Shown one piece after another: positions 15,564 to 47,502 of a stretch of 64,000 nucleotides of DNA. Position 1 is the first letter of the stretch. Each line of letters opens with the position of its first letter. Source of the stretch: Phanerodontia chrysosporium (taxonomy: Eukaryota > Basidiomycota > Agaricomycetes > Polyporales > Phanerochaetaceae); NCBI GenBank assembly GCA_001910725.1, contig MJGA01000002.1:2046001-2110000 (forward strand). Reading direction: 5' to 3'. The notes under the pieces are model-generated. The model ran no database searches, was not told where the DNA came from, and saw only the letters and a program-made list of their open reading frames with translations. Position numbers and translations under genes: made by a program.

Positions 15564-17519
15564 ATGTCTCTCAGCCAGTACGGGCCCATCGCGGGCCTCG
15601 TCGGCCAGGCCTACGACGCCCTGGCATCCATGTCCACCTCACGTCTCGTCCTCTTCCTCCTCATCAACATTCCTATCCTTTCTGTTGTGTGCAACGTCAT
15701 CTACCAGCTGGTGCGTATGCGAACTTGAACATCCGTTTACGCGTGCTCAACGTCTCTCAGTTGCCCAAGGACAAGTCTCTGCCTCCCGTGGTCTGGCATT
15801 GGTTCCCGTGGTTCGGCTCTGCAGCGGCATACGGAGAGGATCCTATCAAGTTCTTCTTTGACTGCAAGGAGAAGGTGTGTCATCTTCTGTAACCTTTCGT
15901 GCTCGTACTAACAATGTACAGTACGGCAATGTGTTCACGTTCATCCTGATGGGACGCAAGGTTACGGTCGCGCTCACGCCAGCTGGCAACAACTTCATCA
16001 TGGGCGGGAAGCACACGACCTTCTCTGCTGAGGAGGTGTACGGGGTGCGTTTCGTTCAACGCACGCCCATTCTGCGTGACTGACGCGTTTAACAGGGTTT
16101 GACGACCCCCGTCTTCGGCAAGGACGTCGTATACGACTGCCCGAACGAGCTGCTCATGGAGCAGAAGAAGTTCGTTAAGTTCGGTCTCTCAACAGAGAAC
16201 TTCCGCCAATACGTCGGCATGATTGAGGAGGAGGTTCTCCAATTTATGCGGAACGATGCTAGCTTCAAGATTTACCAGATGAACGACATTAACGAATGGG
16301 GCGCCTTCGATGTTCTGAAGGTCATGTCCGAAATCACAATCCTCACCGCTTCCCGGACACTGCAAGGCAAGGAAGTTCGCGCAAACATCACCAAGGACTA
16401 CGCTCAGGTCTACAACGACTTGGACGGTGGTTTCACTCCCTTGCACTTCATGTTCCCCAATCTTCCTCTCGAGTCGTACCGTAAGCGCGACGCCGCGCAC
16501 AAGAAGATCAGTGACTTCTACATTAGCATCATCCGCAAGCGTAGGGAGAACCCTGGCCAGGTTCGTATCCTCCAGAATGTCAGCAGCAGTTTTCTGACTA
16601 GTTGTTTAGGAGGAAGAGCACGACATGATTGCGGCTCTCATGAACCAGAAGTACCGTGTCGGTCGCCCACTTAAGGATCACGAAATCGCCCACATCATGA
16701 TCGCTCTTCTCATGGCTGGTCAGCACACAAGTTCCGCCACCGGCTCCTGGGCACTGCTGCACATTGCCGACCGTCCGGATGTCGCGTGAGTATTCTCATT
16801 GAATACGTGTACAGTTCCCTAACGCGAACATTCTAGTGAGGCTTTGTATGAGGAGCAGGTCAAGCACTTCCGTCAATCTGACGGCTCCTGGCGCACTCCC
16901 GAATACGAGGAATTGAAGGAGCTTCCTGTCCTCGACTCAGTCATCCGTGAGACTCTCCGTATCCACCCGCCCATTCACAGCATCATGCGTGCCGTACGTG
17001 AGGATGTCGTCGTCCCGCCTACACTCGCTGCTCCGTCGGAGGACGGTCGCTACGTCATTCCCAAAGGCCACGTCGTACTGTCGTCCGCAGCCATCAGTCA
17101 GGTTGATCCGATGCTTTGGAAGAATGCCAACGACTGGGATCCCTCGCGCTGGTCAGATCCCGAGGGTGTCGCTGCGCAGGCGTACAAGCAGTACGACGAC
17201 GCCGAGGGCGCTAAGGTTGACTTTGGCTTTGGTCTCGTCAGCAAGGGTACCGACAGCCCGTATCAGCCTTTCGGCGCCGGTCGCCACAGGTGCATCGGCG
17301 AGCAGTTCGCATATCTCCAGCTCGGCACGATCATCTCGACCTTTGTTCGCCATGTCGAGATGCGTCTGCCTGAAACTGGTGTGCCTCCGCCGAACTACCA
17401 CGTACGTTCCCATACCCGTATATTGAGGCTGGTTTGTGCTGACGTGGCATCTGCAGACGATGATCACACTCCCGAAGGCGCCTCGCAACATTCTCTACAG
17501 GCGGCGTAACTTCGACTAG
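15564..17519 (+). CDS. ERG11: sterol 14-alpha-demethylase (CYP51)
   Basis: Seven exons: 15564-15710, 15761-15874, 15922-16044, 16096-16560, 16610-16785, 16837-17401 and 17457-17519, giving 550 residues. A hydrophobic ER anchor (residues about 28-48) is followed by CYP51 landmarks: YGNVFTFILMGRKVTVALTP, the B' region TTPVFGKDVVYDCPN, I-helix AGQHTSSATGSW, ETLRIHPP (ExxR) and the haem-binding FGAGRHRCIGEQFA with its Cys ligand. The enzyme removes the 14-alpha methyl group of lanosterol or eburicol in ergosterol synthesis and is the azole target. Length and intron sizes (47-55 bases) are normal for the family. Confidence 0.97.
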
Positions 17520-35868: not shown

Positions 35869-36468
35869 TGTCACAGTTTTTCGTCTTAACCCTTAGGGTT
35901 AGGGGCAGCAGGTGACAGAAGCGATTACTCCGAACTGTGACATGCAGAAGCGCTGGAGTGACAGCCCTAGGCTCGGGGCTGGTCACGTGATACGGCGGTC
36001 ACGTGATGCGCACACGTGCGGTATCCCAGGGTCACATGGTCGAAGGTCTAGAAGCAGGCAAGGGTCTGGAAGCGCCGAGACACTCCGGAATGGACTAGAA
36101 AGCCCTGGAGGTCTCTGGACAGGTCCGGACAGTGCTGGAACGTTCTGGAGGTTTCTGGGACATCGTAGGAACATTTAGGAACGTGTAGAAGAATGTAGGA
36201 ATGCCTGTAGGGCACTAGCCAATAGCGTAGTAGGTATTAGATAGCTAGGACCCTGAACACCGGTCTCTGGGGACCTGGTGCACATGTATATAAACCCTGA
36301 GGGCTGGGGGTGCCTCCCCAGCTTCAATCTCATCGCATCTCACCTCTCTAGCCTCTATACCTCGTCTTCAAGCCTGGCTACACCCTTTGTAGTCCAAGTA
36401 AACCTTTGCCAGTGAGTATTGCTGGTTGGTTTGGTGTATAGGCGCTAGGGCAGCGCATTTTTGTGATA
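35869..36468 (+). repeat. 5' LTR
   Basis: The repeat begins TGTCACAG and ends TTGTGATA, so the termini are TG...TA with imperfect inverted ends (TGTCACA/TGTGATA), not the canonical TG...CA. U3 runs to about 36317 and contains telomere-like TTAGGG units at 35887-35904, two TCACGTGA palindromes (35983-35990, 35999-36006) and a GAACGTTC element at 36138-36145. The TATA box is at 36287-36294. Confidence 0.97.
36287..36294 (+). promoter_or_regulatory. LTR TATA box
   Basis: TATATAAA lies 31 bases before the inferred RNA start at 36318. The same sequence recurs in the 3' LTR at 43787-43794. Confidence 0.8.
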
Positions 36469-36470
36469 GA

Positions 36471-36483
36471 AGATTGAAGCTGG
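36471..36483 (+). promoter_or_regulatory. primer-binding site, self-priming type
   Basis: AGATTGAAGCTGG, two bases past the LTR, is the exact reverse complement of 36318-36330, which is where the RNA should begin given the TATA box. This is the arrangement by which Tf1-type elements prime reverse transcription with their own cleaved 5' RNA end instead of a tRNA. The two-base gap fits removal of two bases by integrase. Confidence 0.75.
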
Positions 36484-36774
36484 CCAACCTACTCCACCTG
36501 TGGTGGCCTAGGTTATTGCTTTGGGTTCTGGGGGCTTGTTTGAACAAGTGCTTTTGCGCTTTGTTCAGTTTTCTGCCGATCCACAGGCGTAAGTGGGCAC
36601 TATAGTACCTTTTTAGGTACAGACAGGGGAACGTGGTGTAACCCACCTCAGAGGGCTTTGCCTGCGGACGAGTAACCCCTGTTGTAGTGCTGGACTAAGG
36701 GTGTAATACCCTGTCCAACCAGTTTTAGCTGCGTGGCGTGGAAACCCGCAGTAATACCCCTTTCTCTTCGTTGA

Positions 36775-37590
36775 GGGTTGGCTGGCAGGAAAGCCTTGCG
36801 CTTTGCCTGTGTGGAGAAGTTTTCTGGCTTGTGTACACAGGCTGACCCGTGTTTACTAGTGCCTAAAGCTGCTAGGAACCGTTTTGTCCTTGCTAAGGAC
36901 GAGAGCTCTGGCAAACCCTTGCTTGAGCGCATCAAGATCTCGAACCTTCACCGCTTCAAAGACGTTGGGAAGCCGCGCCCTGCGTACAAACCTCGCACTA
37001 CACCCTACACCCCTGTCCCTGGTCGTCGTGAAAGGCTTGCTCGTGAAGCAGACTTGAACGACTTCAAGCACCAGCTTCAGCTCGAAGACTATCGCAACGA
37101 ACAGCGCAAGCGCCGCCTACTCGATCGCATCGCGAACGCCCCTCCCCCTCTCCCCCTCATCGAACGTATTGAACCTCCCCCTACTCCCCCTATCGAAGTC
37201 AAACCCATTCCCAAAGACCTTCGCTTTCACACCAACACTCAGGTCCATCAGCTGCGCGACTACGGACGAAAGTTCAACGGCGCCCTTAACCACTTGGGTC
37301 CGTTCTTTCAGAAGCTAGACGAGCAGCGTTTTCGAGTTGGGTTGACTGAACACGAGCTCTACACCTTGGGCTTGTTCAAGGAGAGGTTCGACAACATTCG
37401 CAAACACCTTCAGACCATCGTCGAGACGAAGGAGTACACCACGAGGGAGTGGAAGAAGATTTCGAGGGATTTGAAGAAGGCAGGCGCACATAGCTTCGCT
37501 GAGCTTAAGCCACGCTTCGCTGAGCATTGCAGGGAGCTGATTCAGGAGTTGGGTGAAGATTGGTTGTTTTTGGAGAAGAACCTCGATTAG
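36775..37590 (+). CDS. retrotransposon ORF1, protein-like but without any ATG
   Basis: The frame is open from after a TGA (36772-36774) to TAG at 37588-37590, about 271 codons, with no methionine codon at all. The product looks like a real protein: a Pro/Arg-rich part (KPRPAYKPRTTPYTP, PPPLPLIERIEPPPTPP), a long basic helix (FKHQLQLEDYRNEQRKRRLLD) and a helical C-terminus (LTEHELYTLGLFKERFDNIRKHLQ...). I recognise no domain. If translated from the LTR transcript it needs a non-AUG start; splicing cannot supply one because the leader has no ATG either. It ends 29 bases before gag and uses a different frame. It may be an unusual Gag-like or accessory protein. Confidence 0.6.
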   Translation, partial: GLAGRKALRFACVEKFSGLCTQADPCLLVPKAARNRFVLAKDESSGKPLLERIKISNLHRFKDVGKPRPAYKPRTTPYTPVPGRRERLAREADLNDFKHQLQLEDYRNEQRKRRLLDRIANAPPPLPLIERIEPPPTPPIEVKPIPKDLRFHTNTQVHQLRDYGRKFNGALNHLGPFFQKLDEQRFRVGLTEHELYTLGLFKERFDNIRKHLQTIVETKEYTTREWKKISRDLKKAGAHSFAELKPRFAEHCRELIQELGEDWLFLEKNLD

Positions 37591-37619
37591 TTTTTGTATC
37601 TGCGCGTTTTTGAATCAAG

Positions 37620-39200
37620 ATGTCGCTCAATTCAAATCCTGTTGACTTTGGTTTGCGTTCTGCTGCGAGTTCAAGTGGTATGGACCCTTGGGGAGCGTTA
37701 GAACTCGGCTCTATGGCTGAGGGAGGCCCTACCCCAGTTTTGGCCGCTGCGCCACTTTCGACCTCTTACGAAGAGTACAGCCAGTCATGGGTACAAGCCG
37801 CTCAGGAAGGACTGACTCCTGGCGACTTCAAGGCCCTCGTTGACAGCCTGGGTAACTGGGTAAAGGCTGAGATAGCTCAAGTAAGGTCGGAAATGGGTTC
37901 AGAAGTCCTTCGCTTGAAGGAAGCCCTTCGCAAACGCAAAACCGAGGCCAAGACACTTCAGGAGCAGATAGACACTCTTGAGCAGACTAGACAGCACTTG
38001 TCTGCGCAGATAGCAGAGGCTCAGAACCAAAATCGCGTTTTGCAGAACGCTATGCAGGTGCTGAAGCAGGAGAACGAGAGCTTGAAAGTGTTGGTTCAGC
38101 AAGGCACTAGTGGAGGCAACGTTGGGTTGTCTCAGTCTTTGTTCCCTACCATGAAGGAGCCTGACACCTTTAATGGTGATAAGGCTAGTAAGCTGGATGA
38201 CTGGCTCGAGTCGATGGCACTCTGGTTGCGCCACCGTGGCGTAATGGACGACGAAAAGAAGATAGAGACGGCGATGACTTACCTGCGAGGTTCAGCAAAG
38301 AAGGTCATGCAAGAGTACTTCGACAAGGTGGCAGACTCAAAGCCCCTTGGTACTTGGACCAACTTTGTGAACGAACTCCAGAAAGGATTCCAACAGACCG
38401 ACAAGAAGGACAGGGCAAGGGCAGAGTTTGAGCAGCTTGTCAGCAAGAAAGGAACGAACGAGAAGACTTTCAATGAGTTTGCTGCTCGTTTCCGTTCGCT
38501 GGCTCGCCAAACTGGCTTCTCCAACGAGGAACTGTTGGTCAAAGCCTATGCCCATACCCCTCGTGCCGCCGCCGATGTACTGGCAGCCCGTGGTCGTGCT
38601 CAGTGGGCTACGACCTGGGATGGTTGGTTGAAGGATGTTCAGGAGATTCTGCAGGATCAACGTCTCTTGACGGGCACCGTACTCTCTGGACAGCCTCAGT
38701 CGTCGAAAGACCCTGACGCTATGGATGTCGACGCCTTGAAGAAGGGCTCAGCCCAGGGTAAAGGCAAGACAGCCAAAGTTCAGAAGGTTGCCATGTCGTT
38801 CGAGGAGGCGAAGAAGAAAGGCTGCTGCGCCCAGTGTGGAGGCAAAGGCCACATCGCCAAGGAGTGCCCATCGAAGAAGAACAACTCAGGTTCTTCGACG
38901 TCGTCGAGTAAAACCACCAATGCACCGGTGGCCAGTTCGTCAAAGGCTTCGCCTTCAAAGGGAAAGGAGAAGGATAAGGGCTCTCGCCACACGAAGAACA
39001 GCGTGCGCGAGGTGTACGCCAGCGACTCGGAGAGATTCCAGGAGGTAGCCTCTGACGAGGAGTCGAGCTCGGATAGCTCAGAAGAAGAAGATACCCCCAA
39101 GACCAAACAAAAGAAGAAGTCGTCTTCAAAGGAGAAGGCGCAGAAGATTAACCGCGTGGTGTTCTCAGACGATGAGGATTTTCTGCAGGGACCAATGTAG
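37620..39200 (+). CDS. gag: retrotransposon Gag
   Basis: A 526-residue product from the first ATG of the transcript. Residues about 75-160 form a strong coiled coil (EIAQVRSEMGSEVLRLKEAL and following). The Ty3-type capsid core follows: PDTFNGDKASKLDDWLESM, TYLRGSAKKVMQEYF, FVNELQKGF, RARAEFEQL and FNEFAARFRSLARQTG. A CCHC zinc knuckle (CAQCGGKGHIAKEC) lies at about residues 402-416, followed by a Ser/Lys/Glu-rich tail. Gag forms the virus-like particle and binds element RNA. The stop lies just inside an overlap with pol. Confidence 0.95.
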   Translation: MSLNSNPVDFGLRSAASSSGMDPWGALELGSMAEGGPTPVLAAAPLSTSYEEYSQSWVQAAQEGLTPGDFKALVDSLGNWVKAEIAQVRSEMGSEVLRLKEALRKRKTEAKTLQEQIDTLEQTRQHLSAQIAEAQNQNRVLQNAMQVLKQENESLKVLVQQGTSGGNVGLSQSLFPTMKEPDTFNGDKASKLDDWLESMALWLRHRGVMDDEKKIETAMTYLRGSAKKVMQEYFDKVADSKPLGTWTNFVNELQKGFQQTDKKDRARAEFEQLVSKKGTNEKTFNEFAARFRSLARQTGFSNEELLVKAYAHTPRAAADVLAARGRAQWATTWDGWLKDVQEILQDQRLLTGTVLSGQPQSSKDPDAMDVDALKKGSAQGKGKTAKVQKVAMSFEEAKKKGCCAQCGGKGHIAKECPSKKNNSGSSTSSSKTTNAPVASSSKASPSKGKEKDKGSRHTKNSVREVYASDSERFQEVASDEESSSDSSEEEDTPKTKQKKKSSSKEKAQKINRVVFSDDEDFLQGPM

Positions 39201-42200
39201 AGTCTGCGACATCTGGTCCGTTTTTAGATTTCCTTTACCCTCCCGACTCAGTAGAATGTATTAGATCAGTTTTGGAATCGAGAAAAGTCTCTAGTTTGCC
39301 CTCTAAATCGAGCTTTATCGTTCCAGTAACTTTGAGTCAGGGTAAGGAAATCAGAGTGCAGACTACCGCGCTGGTTGATTCAGGGGCCTATGCTGTGTTC
39401 ATTAGCCATCGCTTCGTCAAGAAGCATAAGCTGAAGACGAACCAGCTGGCCAGGGAGATACGCGTTTACAACGCGGATGGCTCCAGGAACAAGTGTGGCA
39501 GTATTGAGGAGTATGCTTGGCTCGACGTAGCCGTAGGGGACCATATCTCCAGACAAGCATGCCTCATTACAGATCTGGGTGGAAAGGACATGTTCCTCGG
39601 CTTTAGCTACCTGAAGAAGCATAATCCTGAGATAGATTGGGATAAGGGCGAGTGGAAGTACTCCAGATGCCCAGATTCTTGTCGCTTTACCAGCCACAAG
39701 GCTCAAGTAGCACAAGCAGAGCTCGAAGAACATATGGACGAGGACTTCGAGGAGGAAGAAGAGGAGCCTTGGCTCCAGTGGGTCGACCCTTCCACCCCAG
39801 ATGGCCGCGTTTTGGCATTAACTTGCCGGAAGATCGCAGCGATGTGCAGTATTCGTTCGCTGGAAGGAATCGAGGGCTGGGAGCAGCTTGTCCCTGCACA
39901 GTATCAAGACTATGGGGACGTGTTTTCGAAGCGTGCAAGCGAACGGTTACCCGTACGAAAGCCTTACGACCACGCTGTCGAGTTTATCGACGGAGCTACC
40001 CTACCTCGACCAGCTCGTAATTACTCGCTGTCGCCAGAAGAGAGGAATTCTCTGGACGAGTGGATTCAGGAGAATCTCGCCAAGGGATACATCAGACCAA
40101 GTAAATCCCCGCTGGCAGCACCAGTCTTTTTCGTGAAGAAGAAGGACGGTTCATTGCGCTTGGTGCAGGACTACAGAAAGCTGAACGAAGTCGTTAAGAA
40201 AGACCGCTTCCCTATACCCAAGATCTCAGACCTTATAGATCGACTATCTAAGGCTAGTATATACACCAAGATTGACCTTAGATGGGGGTATAACAACGTC
40301 AGAATCAAGGAAGGAGACGAGTGGAAGCTGGCCTTCATCACACCTTTCGGTTTATACGAACCTACAGTGATGTTCTTCGGCCTCAGCAATGCACCAGCAA
40401 CCTTTCAGCGCATGATGAACCATATTCTCGACGATCTGATTCGAGAAGGGCATGTCATGGTCTACCTAGACGACATTCTCATCTTCACGAATGACTTGGA
40501 CCACCATCGGCGATTAGTTCGCGAGGTATTGCAGCGGCTACGCGACAATGACCTGTTCGCTAAGCCAGAAAAATGCTTCTTCGAGACGGATAGCATTGAA
40601 TACCTCGGAATGATCATCAGCAAGGGGTCGGTTCAGATGGATCCATCGAAGGTAGATGGCGTTTTATCTTGGCCCATACCCAAAAGGGTCAAAGATGTCC
40701 AGGCTTTCCTGGGTTTTGCTAACTTCTACCGACGGTTTATTCGAGATTTTGGCAAGATTGTCCGCCCATTGTCAGAGCTTACCCGCAAAGGCAAAGAGTG
40801 GGAATGGGGGCCTGAGCAGCAGGATGCCTTCGATACACTCAAAAGAGCGTTCACTACTGCGCCTATTCTCAAGATTCCAGACGACGAGCACCCTTTTAGG
40901 CTCGAATGCGATTCGTCAGACTTTGCTACGGGGGCTGTACTTGAGCAATTGGGCGAGGATGGCCTTTGGCACCCTGTCGCGTTTTACTCCAAGGCGCTAG
41001 GCGTACACGAGCGCAACTATGAGATATACGACAAGGAGATGCTAGCCATCATCCGCGCACTGAAGGAATGGCGCCACCACTTGGAGGGACACCCTCTACC
41101 ATTCGACATATGGTCAGATCACCAGAATTTGACCTATTTCCGCAAGGCGCAAGACTTGACGCGACGCCAAGCACGTTGGAGTCTTTTCCTCACACGTTTC
41201 CACTTCAAGTTGGAGCACAAGCCTGGAAAGACGATGAAGCGGGCTGATCCAATGTCCAGGAGGCCAGATCATGAATTGGGGGTGGATTGCGACAATCGTG
41301 AAAAAGTCCTTTTGAAGCCAGAATATTTCGCGATTCGAGCCATGCAACCAACCCATTCATCGATAGTGGACGATAGCAAACTGCTAGAAAGGATCAGAAA
41401 AGCCCTGCTGGACGACGAAGTCACCAAGTCGTACAAAGACCTGATGTTGAAAGGACCAAGAGAGTTCGGGAAGGACTTAGCGGAATGGCACCTCGAGGAC
41501 GGGCTACTACTGCACCGAGGCAAGGTGTATGTGCCCAAGGACGACAAGATTAGGGCGGATCTACTCAAGTTACACCACGACTTCCCTGGGGCTGGACACC
41601 CTGGACGATGGAAGACGTTGGAGTTGCTGTCGCGCAACTACTGGTGGCCAGGAATGTCGGTTTACGTCAAGAAGTACGTCGCAGGCTGCGAAGTCTGCCA
41701 GTCGCATAAAAACGTCAACCAGAAGCCTGCTGGCCTGCTACAACCGAACGAGGTTCCGTCGGAACCCTGGGAGATAATCTCATGCGATATGATCACGGAC
41801 TTGCCTGAGTCGGACGGTTACAACGCTATCTTCGTAGTCGTTTGCCGCTTAACCAAGCGAGCACATTTCCTCCCCATCACCAAGGAGTTTTCAGCCAAGG
41901 ATCTGGGAAATTTGCTCTATGAGCGTGTTTGGCCTTTGCACGGCCTACCCAGACAGATCATTTCGGATAGAGGAACACAGTTCGCCGCGAAACTCTTCCA
42001 GGAATGGTGCAGACTCCTGGGGATCAAGTCAGCAATGACTACAGCGTTTCACCCTCAGGCAGACGGTCAGACTGAGCGAGTTAATCAGTCATTGGAGCAG
42101 TATCTGCGCTGCTACACAAGCTTCAGGCAGGACGACTGGGCGTACCTTTTGCCCTCTGCCGAGTTTGCATACAACAACCAGGCGCATGAAAGCACCAAGA

Positions 42201-43333
42201 ACTCGCCATTCTTCGTCGAATATGGCCGTCATCCACGCATGTTCCCAGAGCAGGACCGTGTTACAAGGTTGTCAGAACTGGACGACTGGACGAAGCTTAG
42301 ACAGGAGGCCCAAGATCAGGCGAAATCCGCGCTCATGCTGGCTGCAGAGCGAATGAAGTGGTACTACGACCAGGGTAAATCAGAACCCTTGTTCAAGGTC
42401 GGAGACCGTGTTTGGCTTGACGCAAAGGATCTGAACCTTCGGGTTCCCTCCAAGAAACTGGCACCAAAGCGAGTAGGCCCTTACGAGATCGTAGAGCAGC
42501 TGGGACCGGTCACCTTCAAGCTGAAGTTACCAGCCCATGTGAAGGTTCACCCGGTCTTCCACGCAAGCAAGCTCACGAAGCACGTCGAGGATGAGGTTGC
42601 CAATCGCACGCGCAAACCCCTACCACCCATTCGTGTGGGTGATGACGAGGAGTACGAGGTCGAGCAGATCGTAGATGCACAGCCAGACTCTAAAGGCCGT
42701 GTTATGTACCGAGTACGGTGGAGAGGCTACGATGAGCATAGCGACACATGGGAATACTTGCCCAATCTCAAGCACGCTATGGCGAAGGTCAAACAATTCC
42801 ACAGGAAATACCCAGATGCGCCGAAGGCAATTTCCCTTCTGCAACGCCACCACGACGAGGAGGATGAGTTTTTCGTGCGCGAACTCGCGCTACTCCAATC
42901 TTGGGGAGCAGACGACCAGTTCGAGGTCGAGCTCATGAACAAGGACGCAAAACTCCCCTCACGTGGCTCGCCAGAAAGCGCAGGGTTGGATCTTTTCATC
43001 ACGGAAGACCTTACGCTCAAGCCCCATGATCGCAAGCTAGCGTCAACGGGCCTTCGAATGTGTACTCCACCAGGTACCTACGCTCGAGTCGCACCACGGA
43101 GTGGCCTCAGCCTCAGAGGCATCGACATAGGAGCAGGCGTTATTGACCGAGATTATCGAGGAGAGCTCAAAATTCTACTCATCAACAACTCGCCCGACAC
43201 CTTTACATTCCACAAGGGTGATCGTGTCGCTCAACTCGTGCTCGAAAGAATCTCCTACGCCGAACCAACTCCGGTCTCTCGCCTCGACTCAACCATTCGC
43301 AGCAGCGATGGTTTTGGCTCCACTGGTATTTAG
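39176..43333 (+). CDS. pol: retrotransposon Pol: protease, RT, RNase H, integrase, chromodomain, dUTPase
   Basis: The frame is open from 39176 (after TGA 39173-39175) and overlaps the gag end by 25 bases in the -1 frame; there is no early ATG. Order: protease (ALVDSGA near 39373), reverse transcriptase with VYLDDILIF (near 40463), RNase H (LECDSSDFATG, near 40903), integrase zinc finger HHDF...CEVCQSHK (41572-41710), DDE core (CDMITDLP, SDRGTQF, HESTKNSPF), a chromodomain (YEVEQIVDAQ...YRVRWRGY, about 42655-42810) and a C-terminal dUTPase (about 42912-43333) with all five motifs: SAGLDLF, PRSGLSL, IGAGVIDRDYRGE, GDRVAQLVLE and DGFGSTG. No stop or break is present. Expression needs -1 frameshifting in the TTTT tract, unless the assembly lacks one T there, in which case gag and pol are one ORF. 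Confidence 0.95.
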   Translation, partial: GFSAGTNVESATSGPFLDFLYPPDSVECIRSVLESRKVSSLPSKSSFIVPVTLSQGKEIRVQTTALVDSGAYAVFISHRFVKKHKLKTNQLAREIRVYNADGSRNKCGSIEEYAWLDVAVGDHISRQACLITDLGGKDMFLGFSYLKKHNPEIDWDKGEWKYSRCPDSCRFTSHKAQVAQAELEEHMDEDFEEEEEEPWLQWVDPSTPDGRVLALTCRKIAAMCSIRSLEGIEGWEQLVPAQYQDYGDVFSKRASERLPVRKPYDHAVEFIDGATLPRPARNYSLSPEERNSLDEWIQENLAKGYIRPSKSPLAAPVFFVKKKDGSLRLVQDYRKLNEVVKKDRFPIPKISDLIDRLSKASIYTKIDLRWGYNNVRIKEGDEWKLAFITPFGLYEPTVMFFGLSNAPATFQRMMNHILDDLIREGHVMVYLDDILIFTNDLDHHRRLVREVLQRLRDNDLFAKPEKCFFETDSIEYLGMIISKGSVQMDPSKVDGVLSWPIPKRVKDVQAFLGFANFYRRFIRDFGKIVRPLSELTRKGKEWEWGPEQQDAFDTLKRAFTTAPILKIPDDEHPFRLECDSSDFATGAVLEQLGEDGLWHPVAFYSKALGVHERNYEIYDKEMLAIIRALKEWRHHLEGHPLPFDIWSDHQNLTYFRKAQDLTRRQARWSLFLTRFHFKLEHKPGKTMKRADPMSRRPDHELGVDCDNREKVLLKPEYFAIRAMQPTHSSIVDDSKLLERIRKALLDDEVTKSYKDLMLKGPREFGKDLAEWHLEDGLLLHRGKVYVPKDDKIRADLLKLHHDFPGAGHPGRWKTLELLSRNYWWPGMSVYVKKYVAGCEVCQSHKNVNQKPAGLLQPNEVPSEPWEIISCDMITDLPESDGYNAIFVVVCRLTKRAHFLPITKEFSAKDLGNLLYERVWPLHGLPRQIISDRGTQFAAKLFQEWCRLLGIKSAMTTAFHPQADGQTERVNQSLEQYLRCYTSFRQDDWAYLLPSAEFAYNNQAHESTKNSPFFVEYGRHPRMFPEQDRVTRLSELDDWTKLRQEAQDQAKSALMLAAERMKWYYDQGKSEPLFKVGDRVWLDAKDLNLRVPSKKLAPKRVGPYEIVEQLGPVTFKLKLPAHVKVHPVFHASKLTKHVEDEVANRTRKPLPPIRVGDDEEYEVEQIVDAQPDSKGRVMYRVRWRGYDEHSDTWEYLPNLKHAMAKVKQFHRKYPDAPKAISLLQRHHDEEDEFFVRELALLQSWGADDQFEVELMNKDAKLPSRGSPESAGLDLFITEDLTLKPHDRKLASTGLRMCTPPGTYARVAPRSGLSLRGIDIGAGVIDRDYRGELKILLINNSPDTFTFHKGDRVAQLVLERISYAEPTPVSRLDSTIRSSDGFGSTGI

Positions 43334-43368: not shown

Positions 43369-43968
43369 TGTCACAGTTTTTCGTCTTAACCCTTAGGGTT
43401 AGGGGCAGCAGGTGACAGAAGCGATTACTCCGAACTGTGACATGCAGAAGCGCTGGAGTGACAGCCCTAGGCTCGGGGCTGGTCACGTGATACGGCGGTC
43501 ACGTGATGCGCACACGTGCGGTATCCCAGGGTCACATGGTCGAAGGTCTAGAAGCAGGCAAGGGTCTGGAAGCGCCGAGACACTCCGGAATGGACTAGAA
43601 AGCCCTGGAGGTCTCTGGACAGGTCCGGACAGTGCTGGAACGTTCTGGAGGTTTCTGGGACATCGTAGGAACATTTAGGAACGTGTAGGAGAATGTAGGA
43701 ATGCCTGTAGGGCACTAGCCAATAGCGTAGTAGGTATTAGATAGCTAGGACCCTGAACACCGGTCTCTGGGGACCTGGTGCACATGTATATAAACCCTGA
43801 GGGCTGGGGGTGCCTCCCCAGCTTCAATCTCATCGCATCTCACCTCTCTAGCCTCTATACCTCGTCTTCAAGCCTGGCTACACCCTTTGTAGTCCAAGTA
43901 AACCTTTGCCAGTGAGTATTGCTGGTTGGTTTGGTGTATAGGCGCTAGGGCAGCGCATTTTTGTGATA
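43369..43968 (+). repeat. 3' LTR
   Basis: Identical to the 5' LTR except for G instead of A at 43689. Offset between the copies is exactly 7500 bases. Confidence 0.97.
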
Positions 43969-44072: not shown

Positions 44073-44310
44073 CTATACCTATCTGAGAATAAAGGATAAT
44101 CAGCAATATGTCAGTAAAACAGGCCAGCAGCGGTGAAGGGTAAAGAGAGGAGTATGAGGTGGTTGCAGCGAGCAAGGGACAAGCGTTACCAAGACGGGAT
44201 GATGGTTGTAATTCGGGAAGATTAGTCCTCGGGTAGTCTAGGGCAGAACAGTTAGCGGAGACTCGATATTGCGCGGTTTCTTGCCTTACCCCACTTCACA
44301 CCTCCGCAAC
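44073..44310. promoter_or_regulatory. divergent promoter between DUF6532 and transposase genes
   Basis: The 238 bases between two opposed start codons must serve both transposon genes. Intact and uninterrupted by the retroelement, so the transposase promoter was not damaged. Confidence 0.5.
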
Positions 44311-47300
44311 ATGCCTCGTCAAGAAAATACCTCGCCCAGTGTTATACAGCATACATCTTCCTGCAATAACTGCGCACGCATATTTCGTAGCACTGCTGCA
44401 TTGAAATCACACATCCGTCAGTCTCCGAAATGTCAACAGGCCTTCGATGAGCGCACCGCAGCAATGCAAGTTGACGAGCCGGCACCAGACCTGCTTCCAA
44501 GCTCCACAGACGACCTTGAGGAAGGCAGAAATGCGGACCACCACCGGACACCTGAGCCGCCATCTAAACGCGCTAGGGTGGAGGATGTTCCTGACGAGGA
44601 TAGCCCTTTAGAGGCTGGAGGAATCCCAAAGAAGCCTTGGATCGATCACGCACCAGGTCTTCGAGTCAGGACCAAGGGCAAGGGGTCCAATCTTTTTGAA
44701 GCCATCGATCTCAGGCAGACAGAGAAGGGAAGCGTGTGGTCGCCGTTCGCAGATGAAGAGGAGTGGCAGTTGGCTCACTGGTTGATGACACATGGTACGT
44801 CGCAGAGTGCAATTGATGAATACCTGCAGCTTCCCATTGTAAGTGATATGCTAGCTCGAAGTGGGCATAAGTGAAGCTAACCTTTACGCGTCCTCAGACA
44901 GTGAACCGCACGAAGGTCTCGTACAAGAATAACCTCTCTCTGCGGCAGAAGATCGATAGCCTGCCTAGGGGAGCGGAGTGGAAATGCGAGACGTTCACCT
45001 GCACAGGAGACGTCATAGATAAGAAGACAGGGCTGAAGAAAGTACAAACCTTCGACTTATGGAAGCGCGACCCTGTGGAATGTATCAAAGAGCTTCTCAG
45101 TAACCCAACATATCAGGAATATATTCGGTACGCGTCGGAACCACAGTTCGAAGATTTCGAGGGGACAAAGCCAATAGTCGATGAGATGTGGACAGCTGAG
45201 TGGTGGCCAGAGATTGAGGTTAGTGTCCTAAGCATGTATCGCTACACAGATTTGCTCACCGACTGGTGCGCAGAAACGACTTCCCGCTGGTGCTGTTGTT
45301 GCGCCTGTCATTCTGTCGTCCGACAAGACGCAGTTATCAGCCTTCAGTGGTGATAAAGCTGCTTGGCCTGTGTACCTTAGCCTGGGCAACATCTCGAAAG
45401 ATATTCGACGCTCACCATCCTCCCATTCCATGATTCTCCTTGGCTATCTGCCCGTCACGAAGATGGCTTGCTTTACTAAGGGTGCACGTCAACTGGCATG
45501 CTATCAACTGTTCCACGACTGCATGCGGGCACTGTTGCGACCTCTCGTGAAGGCTGGGCTCGAGGGCGTGGACATGGTATGTGCGGATGGCTTTATCCGT
45601 ACCGTATATCCCATTCTTGCAGCCTACATCGCCGACCATCCGGAGCAGTGCTTGGTAGCCTGTGTGAAGGAGAACCGCTGTCCCAAGTGCCTTACACGTA
45701 GCCAAGACCGCGGTACAGGGATCGGGAAGCACGCACGTTGGCGCAACCACAAGCAGACGGCAGAGAAGTTGAGGAGAGCAGTGAAAGGAGAGGCGCCCAC
45801 TGGCTTTGATGAAGATGGCCTGCGCGCGGTCAACCCCTTCTGGTCGCAACTTCCCCATGCCGACATTTTCACTTGTATAACACCCGATATATTGCACCAG
45901 CTCCACAAAGGGATGTTCAAGGACCATGTCGTGAAGTGGGCATCTGCTTGCGTTCCGAGGGGCGACAAGGAGGTCGATGCGAGGTTCAAGTGTATGCCGG
46001 CACATCCAGAGCTTCGCCATTTTCATCAGGGCATCTCGCTTATTTCTCAGTGGACGGGTACAGAGCACAAGAACATGGAGAAGGTGTTTCTAGGCGTTAT
46101 TTCTGGTGCGGCGCCTCGCGAAGTCATTCTTGCCGTGCGCGGACTCCTGGACTTCATCTACTACGCCCACTTTGAGTCACACACTGAGGCTTCACTCTTG
46201 TCTCTCGATGCCGCCTGGTCCCAGTTTCACAAGTACAAGTCGTCATTCATCAAGCATTACACGCTATCGAAAGCGAAGCCGAAAGCGTGGGCGAACTTCA
46301 ACGGGATCCCGAAGCTTCATGCCATGGATCACTACCTCCGATCTATCCGGCTGCTGGGATCTGCTCCGGGTTACAACACTGAAGGTACGGAACGTCTCCA
46401 CATCGACTTCGCAAAGAACGCCTATCGTGCAGGGAACAAGAAGGACTACATCAAGCAGATGTGTCAATGGCTAGATCGACAGGAGGCCGTCCACCGCTTC
46501 AAGATCTACTTGGACTGGCGACAAGGGCTACCCTCTCGGACCCCAGAAGCTGAGCAAGTACTCAACGGCATTGGTAAGGACAGGCCGAGCAACACTGCAG
46601 CTCAAGACACGCCGGCGCCGGAGCAAGAGGACTCTTTTCGCATCCCGTCGTGCACTGGTATCAATGCTGGCTGCGATTACAAGTTCGCTAAACGCCCCGC
46701 CTATCCTCGAATGAAAGCATCCGAGGTTTCTGAGGCCTTCGGTGCTCCCGATCTTTCATGGTACCTCGAGGAATACTTGCGAGCAAAGGCGTCCTCCGCT
46801 CCGAGCGCCGTCGTCGACTCCATGCCCGAACTCTCGGCGATGTCCCCAGATACTCGGATCGGCGTGTACAAGCAGGTGCGCTTCAGCTTGCCTGCCATGT
46901 GTCAGGTGTCAAGGCACGTCGTTCTCGACGCTGTACATGCCACTCCGTCCAAGGGAAACGAAGTCGGCGGTGTGGAGATAGAGACCAAATCCGCGCAGTT
47001 CTCAACCGTCCTTGCCTATCGGCATTTACGGCCAACAGAGGGTAACGACACTCGGACACGCGACGCAGCGCAAGTGCGTGCTGAAGGTATGACCACTAGC
47101 GATACATGTTGGATATCGGGAGAAGCTCATACCTGTCATCTCATAGACCTTTCCGTAGGGCGTGTCAAAGCGATATTCAATGCGCCGGATGCATGGTTAC
47201 AGCTAGCCCCACTCCCTCTCGTCTATATGGAGTGGTTTACGCCGCTGAATACCTTCGATTCAGATATGGGTATGTTCACTGTCACGGAGTCCATGTCTCG

Positions 47301-47502
47301 CACGTACCGCGGCTATCGCAGCATATCCGTCATATCTATCACGGACATTGTTCGCACCTGTCATCTCATTCCTCGGTGGGGCAAGCGACTGGATCCTGCG
47401 TGGTCTCAGGATGAGATCTTCGAATTATGTAAACACTTCTACCTCAATCCCTACCTCCGTCATTCTGACTTCGTATTGCTTCGGTTTTTACACAAAGAAT
47501 AG
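44311..47502 (+). CDS. Plavaka-type (KDZ superfamily) transposase
   Basis: Exons 44311-44838, 44898-45218 and 45274-47502 join in phase to 1025 residues without a stop. A zinc-finger-like CNNCARIFRSTAALKSHIRQSPKC lies at residues about 18-41. The transposase body includes VILSSDKTQLSAFSGDKAAWPVYLSLGNI, the recurring first catalytic-region motif of Plavaka proteins, then LLGYLPVTK, GFIRTVYPILAAYIADHPEQCLVACVKENRCPKC, the DILHQLHKGMFKDHVVKW block and LHAMDHYLRSIRLLGSAPGYNTEGTERLHIDFAK. The transposase would excise and insert the element through an RNase H-fold active site. The gene is intact, so this copy may be autonomous. A start 14 codons upstream at 44269 lacks an ATG. Confidence 0.9.

Follow-up and report, generated by a model that had tools for sequence, protein, structure and literature searches.

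A predicted leader intron that may create the start codon of an accessory gene in an AUG-free retrotransposon leader

Introduction

Retroelements must split a single transcript among the genome, the Gag message and other messages. The elements copia, BARE1 and Bagy2 produce spliced subgenomic RNAs, from which Gag or env is made (PMC3735527, available sections). In rice tungro bacilliform virus (RTBV), P4 is made by splicing a leader uORF, which has its own start, onto ORF IV (PMC5902531, available sections). Among basidiomycete elements, PosPlaTy3-4 of Postia placenta is a dUTPase-bearing Ty3/gypsy chromovirus, and a figure legend in the survey covering the dUTPase elements of this fungus states that some fungal elements carry an additional ORF of unknown function (PMC2864245). 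The available sections of that survey give no position for the extra ORF and mention neither a leader intron nor an AUG desert. Extra ORFs in LTR elements are also treated in PMC5408684 (in its available portion), and the available portions of PMC3248453 and PMC2774666 add nothing to this comparison.

The element described here lies in a 64,000-nucleotide stretch of Phanerodontia chrysosporium DNA (hereafter the window; assembly GCA_001910725.1, contig MJGA01000002.1, positions 2,046,001 to 2,110,000), and all coordinates are those of the window. It shares with PosPlaTy3-4 a chromodomain and a C-terminal Pol dUTPase (PMC2864245, available sections). Like copia, BARE1 and Bagy2, it would make different proteins from spliced and unspliced RNA, with only the unspliced form expected to replicate, if the splicing predicted here takes place; in contrast to those elements, the splice lies in the leader, where it would create a start codon and remove the primer-binding site. 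The resemblance to RTBV P4 is that leader splicing would supply the start for a separate ORF; however, the window leader has no uORF, and the AUG is present in neither exon alone. In the open-access literature on splice-created or split start codons, AUG-free leaders, extra fungal ORFs before gag, self-priming and subgenomic RNAs, no retroelement was found that combines a splice-created start codon with an AUG-free leader.

A further possible likeness is to self-primed elements of the Tf1 type, in which the RNA 5ʹ end is complementary to a site adjoining the 5ʹ LTR; the match here is 11 of 11 bases, given the 5ʹ end proposed below. Tf1 is not known to have a leader intron or an accessory ORF before gag.

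Organization of the element

The window element is a Ty3/gypsy chromovirus (Metaviridae), and all of its features lie on the plus strand. It is bounded by paired 600-bp LTRs (35869–36468 and 43369–43968) that differ by one mismatch, and the target duplication CTATT flanks both sides. The gag gene (37620–39200; Retrotrans_gag, 4.3e-08) is followed by pol (39176–43333), in which Pfam recognizes protease, RT, RNase H and integrase in that order, a chromodomain, and a C-terminal dUTPase (PF00692, 7.6e-38, pol-frame residues 1257–1384) that places the element among the dUTPase-bearing ones. The start of pol overlaps the end of gag at 39176–39200 in a different frame, so Gag-Pol would need frameshifting or some other device. 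The ORF singled out in the earlier note has 127 matches in the same 39-Mb genome, many of them full length and nearly identical, others fragments. Three near-identical copies (G000:C13:553440, 562051 and 570663) share one orientation and a spacing of 8.61 kb, perhaps through tandem duplication of one insertion. Downstream of the window element, in the same orientation, are a weak zinc-finger frame (44242–44874) and a Plavaka transposase frame (45232–47502; 1.7e-91).

A TATA box (TATATAAA, 36287–36294) lies within the 5ʹ LTR. Bases 36320–36330 (AGCTTCAATCT) are complementary at 11 of 11 positions to 36471–36481, a site that starts two bases inside the LTR end. This complementarity presumably reflects self-priming of the Tf1 type, which would make 36471–36481 the primer-binding site and would place the RNA 5ʹ end at 36320, about 33 nt past the start of the TATA box. 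A related family in the same genome, family B, has the same layout by eye, with 11 of 11 complementary bases at the same offset (locus L080).

An ATG-free leader

The plus strand contains no ATG between those at 36284 and 37620, a gap of 1336 nt. On neither strand does the window have a longer one; the next on the plus strand measures 644 and the longest on the minus strand 551. The ATG at 36284 sits just before the TATA box, upstream of the proposed RNA start, and that at 37620 begins gag. Thus, the ATG desert that the earlier note described from TATA box to gag is real, as is its corollary that gag offers the first AUG of unspliced RNA. The expectation of about 20 ATGs given there (1302/64) was too high; base composition predicts 18.6 and dinucleotide composition 9.3. 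Even so, none of 3000 dinucleotide shuffles of 36320–37619 was free of ATG. Taken separately, the intron predicted below is ATG-free with a shuffle probability of 0.0093 and the stretch between the start of exon 2 and gag with one of 0.0033; for exon 1, at 92 nt, the probability is 0.61. On the minus strand, the same stretch is not ATG-poor, with 12 CAT.

Within the desert is a methionine-free open frame of 271 codons (36775–37590). Out-of-frame ATGs are likewise absent from its coding part, ORF1, where 1.8 are expected when ORF1's own amino acids and codons are shuffled (P=0.097) and 3.8 under pol codon usage (P=0.009). The deficit in the codon shuffle is only suggestive.

A predicted intron and a probable split start codon

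Donors matching GTRNGT occur twice in 36320–37625, and there is only one acceptor of the form CTRAY..YAG. The first donor, GCCA/GTGAGT at 36412, lies inside the 5ʹ LTR, and the acceptor, CTGAC...TTTACTAG/TGCC, ends at 36859. Together they delimit a predicted intron of 448 nt (36412–36859; GTGAGT...CTGAC...CTAG), preceded by exon 1 (36320–36411). Introns of basidiomycetes are usually shorter, 448 nt being long for this group. Candidate introns of host genes in the window, picked out by the same pattern, look similar, one being 16786–16836 (GTGAGT...CTAAC...TCTAG). Joining 36411 to 36860 gives GCC-ATG-CC in frame with ORF1, the A coming from exon 1 (36411) and the TG from exon 2 (36860–36861), with a purine at −3. 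Exon 2 of ORF1 runs from this TG to a TAG (36860–37590), and the joined frame encodes 243 aa. In the joined leader, the first ATG opens ORF1 and the second is that of gag. Out of 56 donor–YAG pairs, two give an ATG at the junction, and only the pair 36412/36859 also opens a long frame; the second GTRNGT donor, at 36589 within the intron, would give no junction ATG. The intron holds the presumed primer-binding site and no ATG.

From these signals, the leader probably carries a fungal-type intron whose removal creates the ORF1 AUG. The view of the earlier note that ORF1 could be made only by non-AUG initiation or another unusual mode is therefore probably wrong, since the leader's one branch point and acceptor, paired with the LTR donor, give an in-frame AUG. 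The same note had counted a spliced 5ʹ exon supplying an AUG against its reading, and this is probably what the leader contains, though neither exon supplies the AUG alone.

On the reading put forward here, transcription would begin near 36320 in the 5ʹ LTR, and splicing would occur but be partial. On unspliced RNA, scanning ribosomes would find no AUG for 1.3 kb and would initiate at gag; this RNA would retain the primer-binding site and could serve as genome. Removal of 36412–36859 would join A36411 to TG36860–36861, forming an AUG (GCCAUGCC) about 91 nt from the cap. This split AUG would open ORF1, a 243-aa accessory protein, and the spliced RNA, having lost the primer-binding site, would be a dead-end message. 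An AUG in any frame of the intron or ORF1 would intercept ribosomes on unspliced RNA, hence the desert. That a splice-made AUG sorts one leader in this way, into an ORF1 message when spliced and a Gag message or genome when unspliced, is judged likely from the sequence. If true, it divides the transcript by means of a few bases and explains why a 1.3-kb, partly coding stretch is free of AUG in all frames. Searches for integrated intronless copies found none, whether with the junction of ORF1, that of family B or that of exon 1 with gag; this is what one would expect of spliced RNA that cannot be primed, and equally of spliced RNA that is never made.

Conservation across genomic copies

Of 79 loci, 68 were compared, including the window copy (L016), each aligning over at least 2200 of 2415 reference bases. 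The eleven excluded comprise eight dUTPase loci, two loci with broken leaders (L075 and L076) and L079; the sample leans to intact copies, most diverged or frameshifted ones being absent from it. The donor is kept in all 68 copies (67 GTGAGT and one GTAAGT), each time preceded by A. The branch point and the AG/TGCC acceptor are kept in 67, the exception, L072, being a deletion. Conserved splice signals of this kind are what a spliced subgenomic RNA would require.

The earlier note took ATGs scattered through related leaders as a sign against its reading. No ATG is found in 36320–37619 in 63 of the 68 near-full-length copies, and five copies have them: there is a single ATG in L047, another shared by L066 and L070, and three and seven, respectively, in the decayed copies L078 and L074. 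An ATG at 36310 in L044 and L073 lies upstream of the proposed RNA start. Two copies outside the 68 were read in part; six ATGs precede gag in L084 and none in L083. These two also belong to a set of eleven genome copies with a 180-aa frame in place of full ORF1, and both carry one-base deletions in or near a C-rich tract; such copies could stem from sequencing errors, from slippage or from the spread of a defective form.

Variants were counted after L016, L078 and L074 were dropped, leaving 65 copies with 346 distinct variants. CpG to TpG or CpA changes dominate the variation in 36286–38700 (0.39–0.42 per site, vs 0.11–0.13 for the same changes elsewhere), as with cytosine methylation. When CpG is included in the mutation spectrum, ORF1 has a pN/pS of 0.38 downstream of the split codon and gag one of 0.37; read in its other two frames, ORF1 gives 1.61 and 2.39. 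The first 28 codons of the open frame, which fall within the intron, look neutral, with a pN/pS of 1.37 from 13 variants only (10 nonsynonymous and 3 synonymous). When L074 and L078 are kept, the values are 0.47 for ORF1, 0.46 for gag and 1.17 for the intronic part. The contrast between the intronic part and ORF1 indicates that translation of the protein starts at the split codon or close to it rather than at the start of the 271-codon frame. Accordingly, the test of selection proposed in the earlier note bears out ORF1 as a real protein-coding gene, constrained in one frame only and with homologues elsewhere; of the 271-codon frame itself, the existence stands, but only the last 243 codons behave as coding sequence.

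These values leave little room for the possibility that ORF1 is not a gene and the desert a product of chance or composition. Such a view could draw on the lack of a known domain or fold in ORF1. It is largely refuted by purifying selection as strong as that on gag and confined to one frame, by homologues at 33–70% identity and by the shuffles, and it can be given hardly any credence.

An alternative that accepts ORF1 as a gene is non-AUG initiation on unspliced RNA, for example at the GTG at 36859 that straddles the acceptor. This in-frame GTG sits exactly where conservation starts, and one homologue (P0001) is recorded with V at the split codon. However, its context is poor (ttactaGTGcct), and other in-frame TTG or GTG codons lie upstream at 36778, 36796, 36811 and 36829. 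Non-AUG initiation also leaves unexplained why a donor, branch point and acceptor are kept, and why an AUG-creating acceptor is found exactly at the start. It is thus considered quite improbable relative to a start codon formed by splicing.

Avoidance of new ATGs

If unspliced RNA is the Gag message, variants that create ATGs should be scarce in the leader of living copies. Such variants were counted as distinct variants, conditioned on mutation type and on whether they are synonymous. In ORF1 there is 1 vs 6.70 expected (P=0.0006), while in gag there are 11 vs 11.01 expected. Even the sole ORF1 variant of this kind (37165) yields an actual ATG in none of its 4 carrier copies. Over the whole leader, 3 are found vs 11.02 expected (P=0.0008), and over exon 1 plus intron, 2 vs 4.32 (P=0.14). 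In the minus-strand control, CAT-creating variants in ORF1 number 6 vs 6.90 expected; in exon 1 plus intron they number 1 vs 4.83 (P=0.012), and in the leader 7 vs 11.73 (P=0.047). Because the control is also low in exon 1 plus intron, the intron deficit is not specific to ATG. Adding the two decayed copies, L074 and L078, brings ATG-creating variants to 12 vs 16.99 in total (P=0.047) and to 8 vs 10.14 in ORF1 (P=0.20), a weakening that is expected if purging stops once a copy dies.

Avoidance of ATG is therefore well supported in ORF1 of live copies and, by composition, over the leader as a whole; in the intron by itself, it is plausible but not separately proven. The proposal in the earlier note that AUG is purged from the leader while it stays coding is upheld by the contrast between ORF1 and gag.

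The ORF1 protein and its homologues

ORF1 is a protein of 243 aa without an internal methionine. Sequence searches returned 21 homologous proteins, 14 of which were aligned with the window protein and that of L080; the fungi named are the polypore-type species Obba rivulosa, Rhodonia placenta and Phanerochaete sordida. At the split codon, 12 of the 21 proteins have M-P or V-P as their first residues (P0001, P0002, P0003, P0005, P0007, P0008, P0010, P0012–P0015 and P0018). Among family-B-like homologues, P0020 starts with M-P, and P0016 and P0022 with M-K. Others start off this pattern, P0006 two residues and P0011 nine residues before V-P, and P0009 about nine residues later; P0017, P0019 and P0021 are shorter. 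In records of the ena and lgn kinds, the initial M may be an ATG or a GTG written as M, and such starts are not evidence of splicing.

Internal methionine is nearly absent from nine A-like homologues (1 in 2109 residues), whereas six family-B-like ones have 24 in 1099. P0006 and P0008 have 2 in 405 residues, and P0013–P0015 with P0018 have 11 in 933; these groups were set by eye, and the sequences are related. The scarcity among A-like proteins indicates that the lack of in-frame ATG spans that group, down to about 40% identity. No relatives were found in a viral contig collection queried with ORF1, gag and a piece of RT, or in a scan of a genome contig collection. By eye, ORF1 was not recognized in L082, a locus chosen to represent the leader of a third family.

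An AlphaFold2 model of ORF1 built from 16 sequences (mean pLDDT 75.5, pTM 0.47) is of low confidence in its N-terminal part and helical in its C-terminal domain. Foldseek gave no match at E <= 0.001 among the 43 matches listed for the PDB and the 55 counted for BFVD. Against Pfam and PDB sequences there were only weak matches of the low-complexity, helical kind, and no recognized domain or fold. The modeled layout, with an unstructured N-terminus and a helical C-terminal domain, would perhaps suit a role in particle assembly or RNA handling. ORF1 thus represents a conserved protein family without a Pfam match, which gene callers would miss or whose start they would misplace. It is more probable than not that the arrangement is a switch belonging to a lineage, in which a single splicing event both forms the AUG of an accessory gene and eliminates the primer-binding site, the whole leader is purged of AUG in every frame, and the accessory family, with no known fold, extends across wood-decay fungi.

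A related family without the desert

If gag is translated from unspliced RNA, the purge is predicted in relatives that do the same, and none is needed where gag is reached by splicing, as may be the case in family B. Two copies of this family were read (L079 and L080). The ORF1 homologue is present and the desert absent: from the proposed RNA start to the gag ATG, the L080 leader has 25 ATGs. The homologue has its own ATG (L080:1766), and its frame is broken in L079. A donor, CTACTAAG/GTAAGT, lies inside the LTR, and CTAACATACCTTTTGACTAAG/AAACAATGG stands immediately before gag in L080 and, by eye, in L079. An AAG acceptor is unusual. Judging by these motifs, family B may splice the LTR donor straight to gag (L080:892–2679), removing ORF1. 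A simple interpretation is that the leader of family B tolerates ATGs because its Gag comes from spliced RNA, and that the leader of the window family, which relies on unspliced RNA for Gag, does not.

The junction in family B also bears on an alternative in which most messages lose the window intron and Gag is made by reinitiation after ORF1, by leaky scanning, or through a second splice just before the gag AUG. The ORF1 AUG would still be made by splicing in that case, and at the position of the family B junction the window has TCAAG/ATG. However, the window lacks a canonical branch point and acceptor before gag, and mostly spliced messages would leave the absence of ATG from the leader, and above all from the intron, without a reason. 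This alternative appears unlikely, though less so than non-AUG initiation, and partial splicing, with Gag made from unspliced RNA, is preferred.

Rfam gave no match up to E=2 in window positions 36250–37700 or in L080 780–2700. In the window intron, the stretch 36469–36780 is more stable as a folded RNA than all 100 of its shuffles (z −3.95), and a stretch of the family B leader folds no better than shuffles (z 0.01). The introns of the two families can otherwise hardly be aligned, yet 23 bases (TGCCGATCCACAGGCGTAAGTGG) are identical at 36574–36596 and L080:1399–1421. This common stretch, which contains the second donor, GTAAGT, may be a packaging or structural element.
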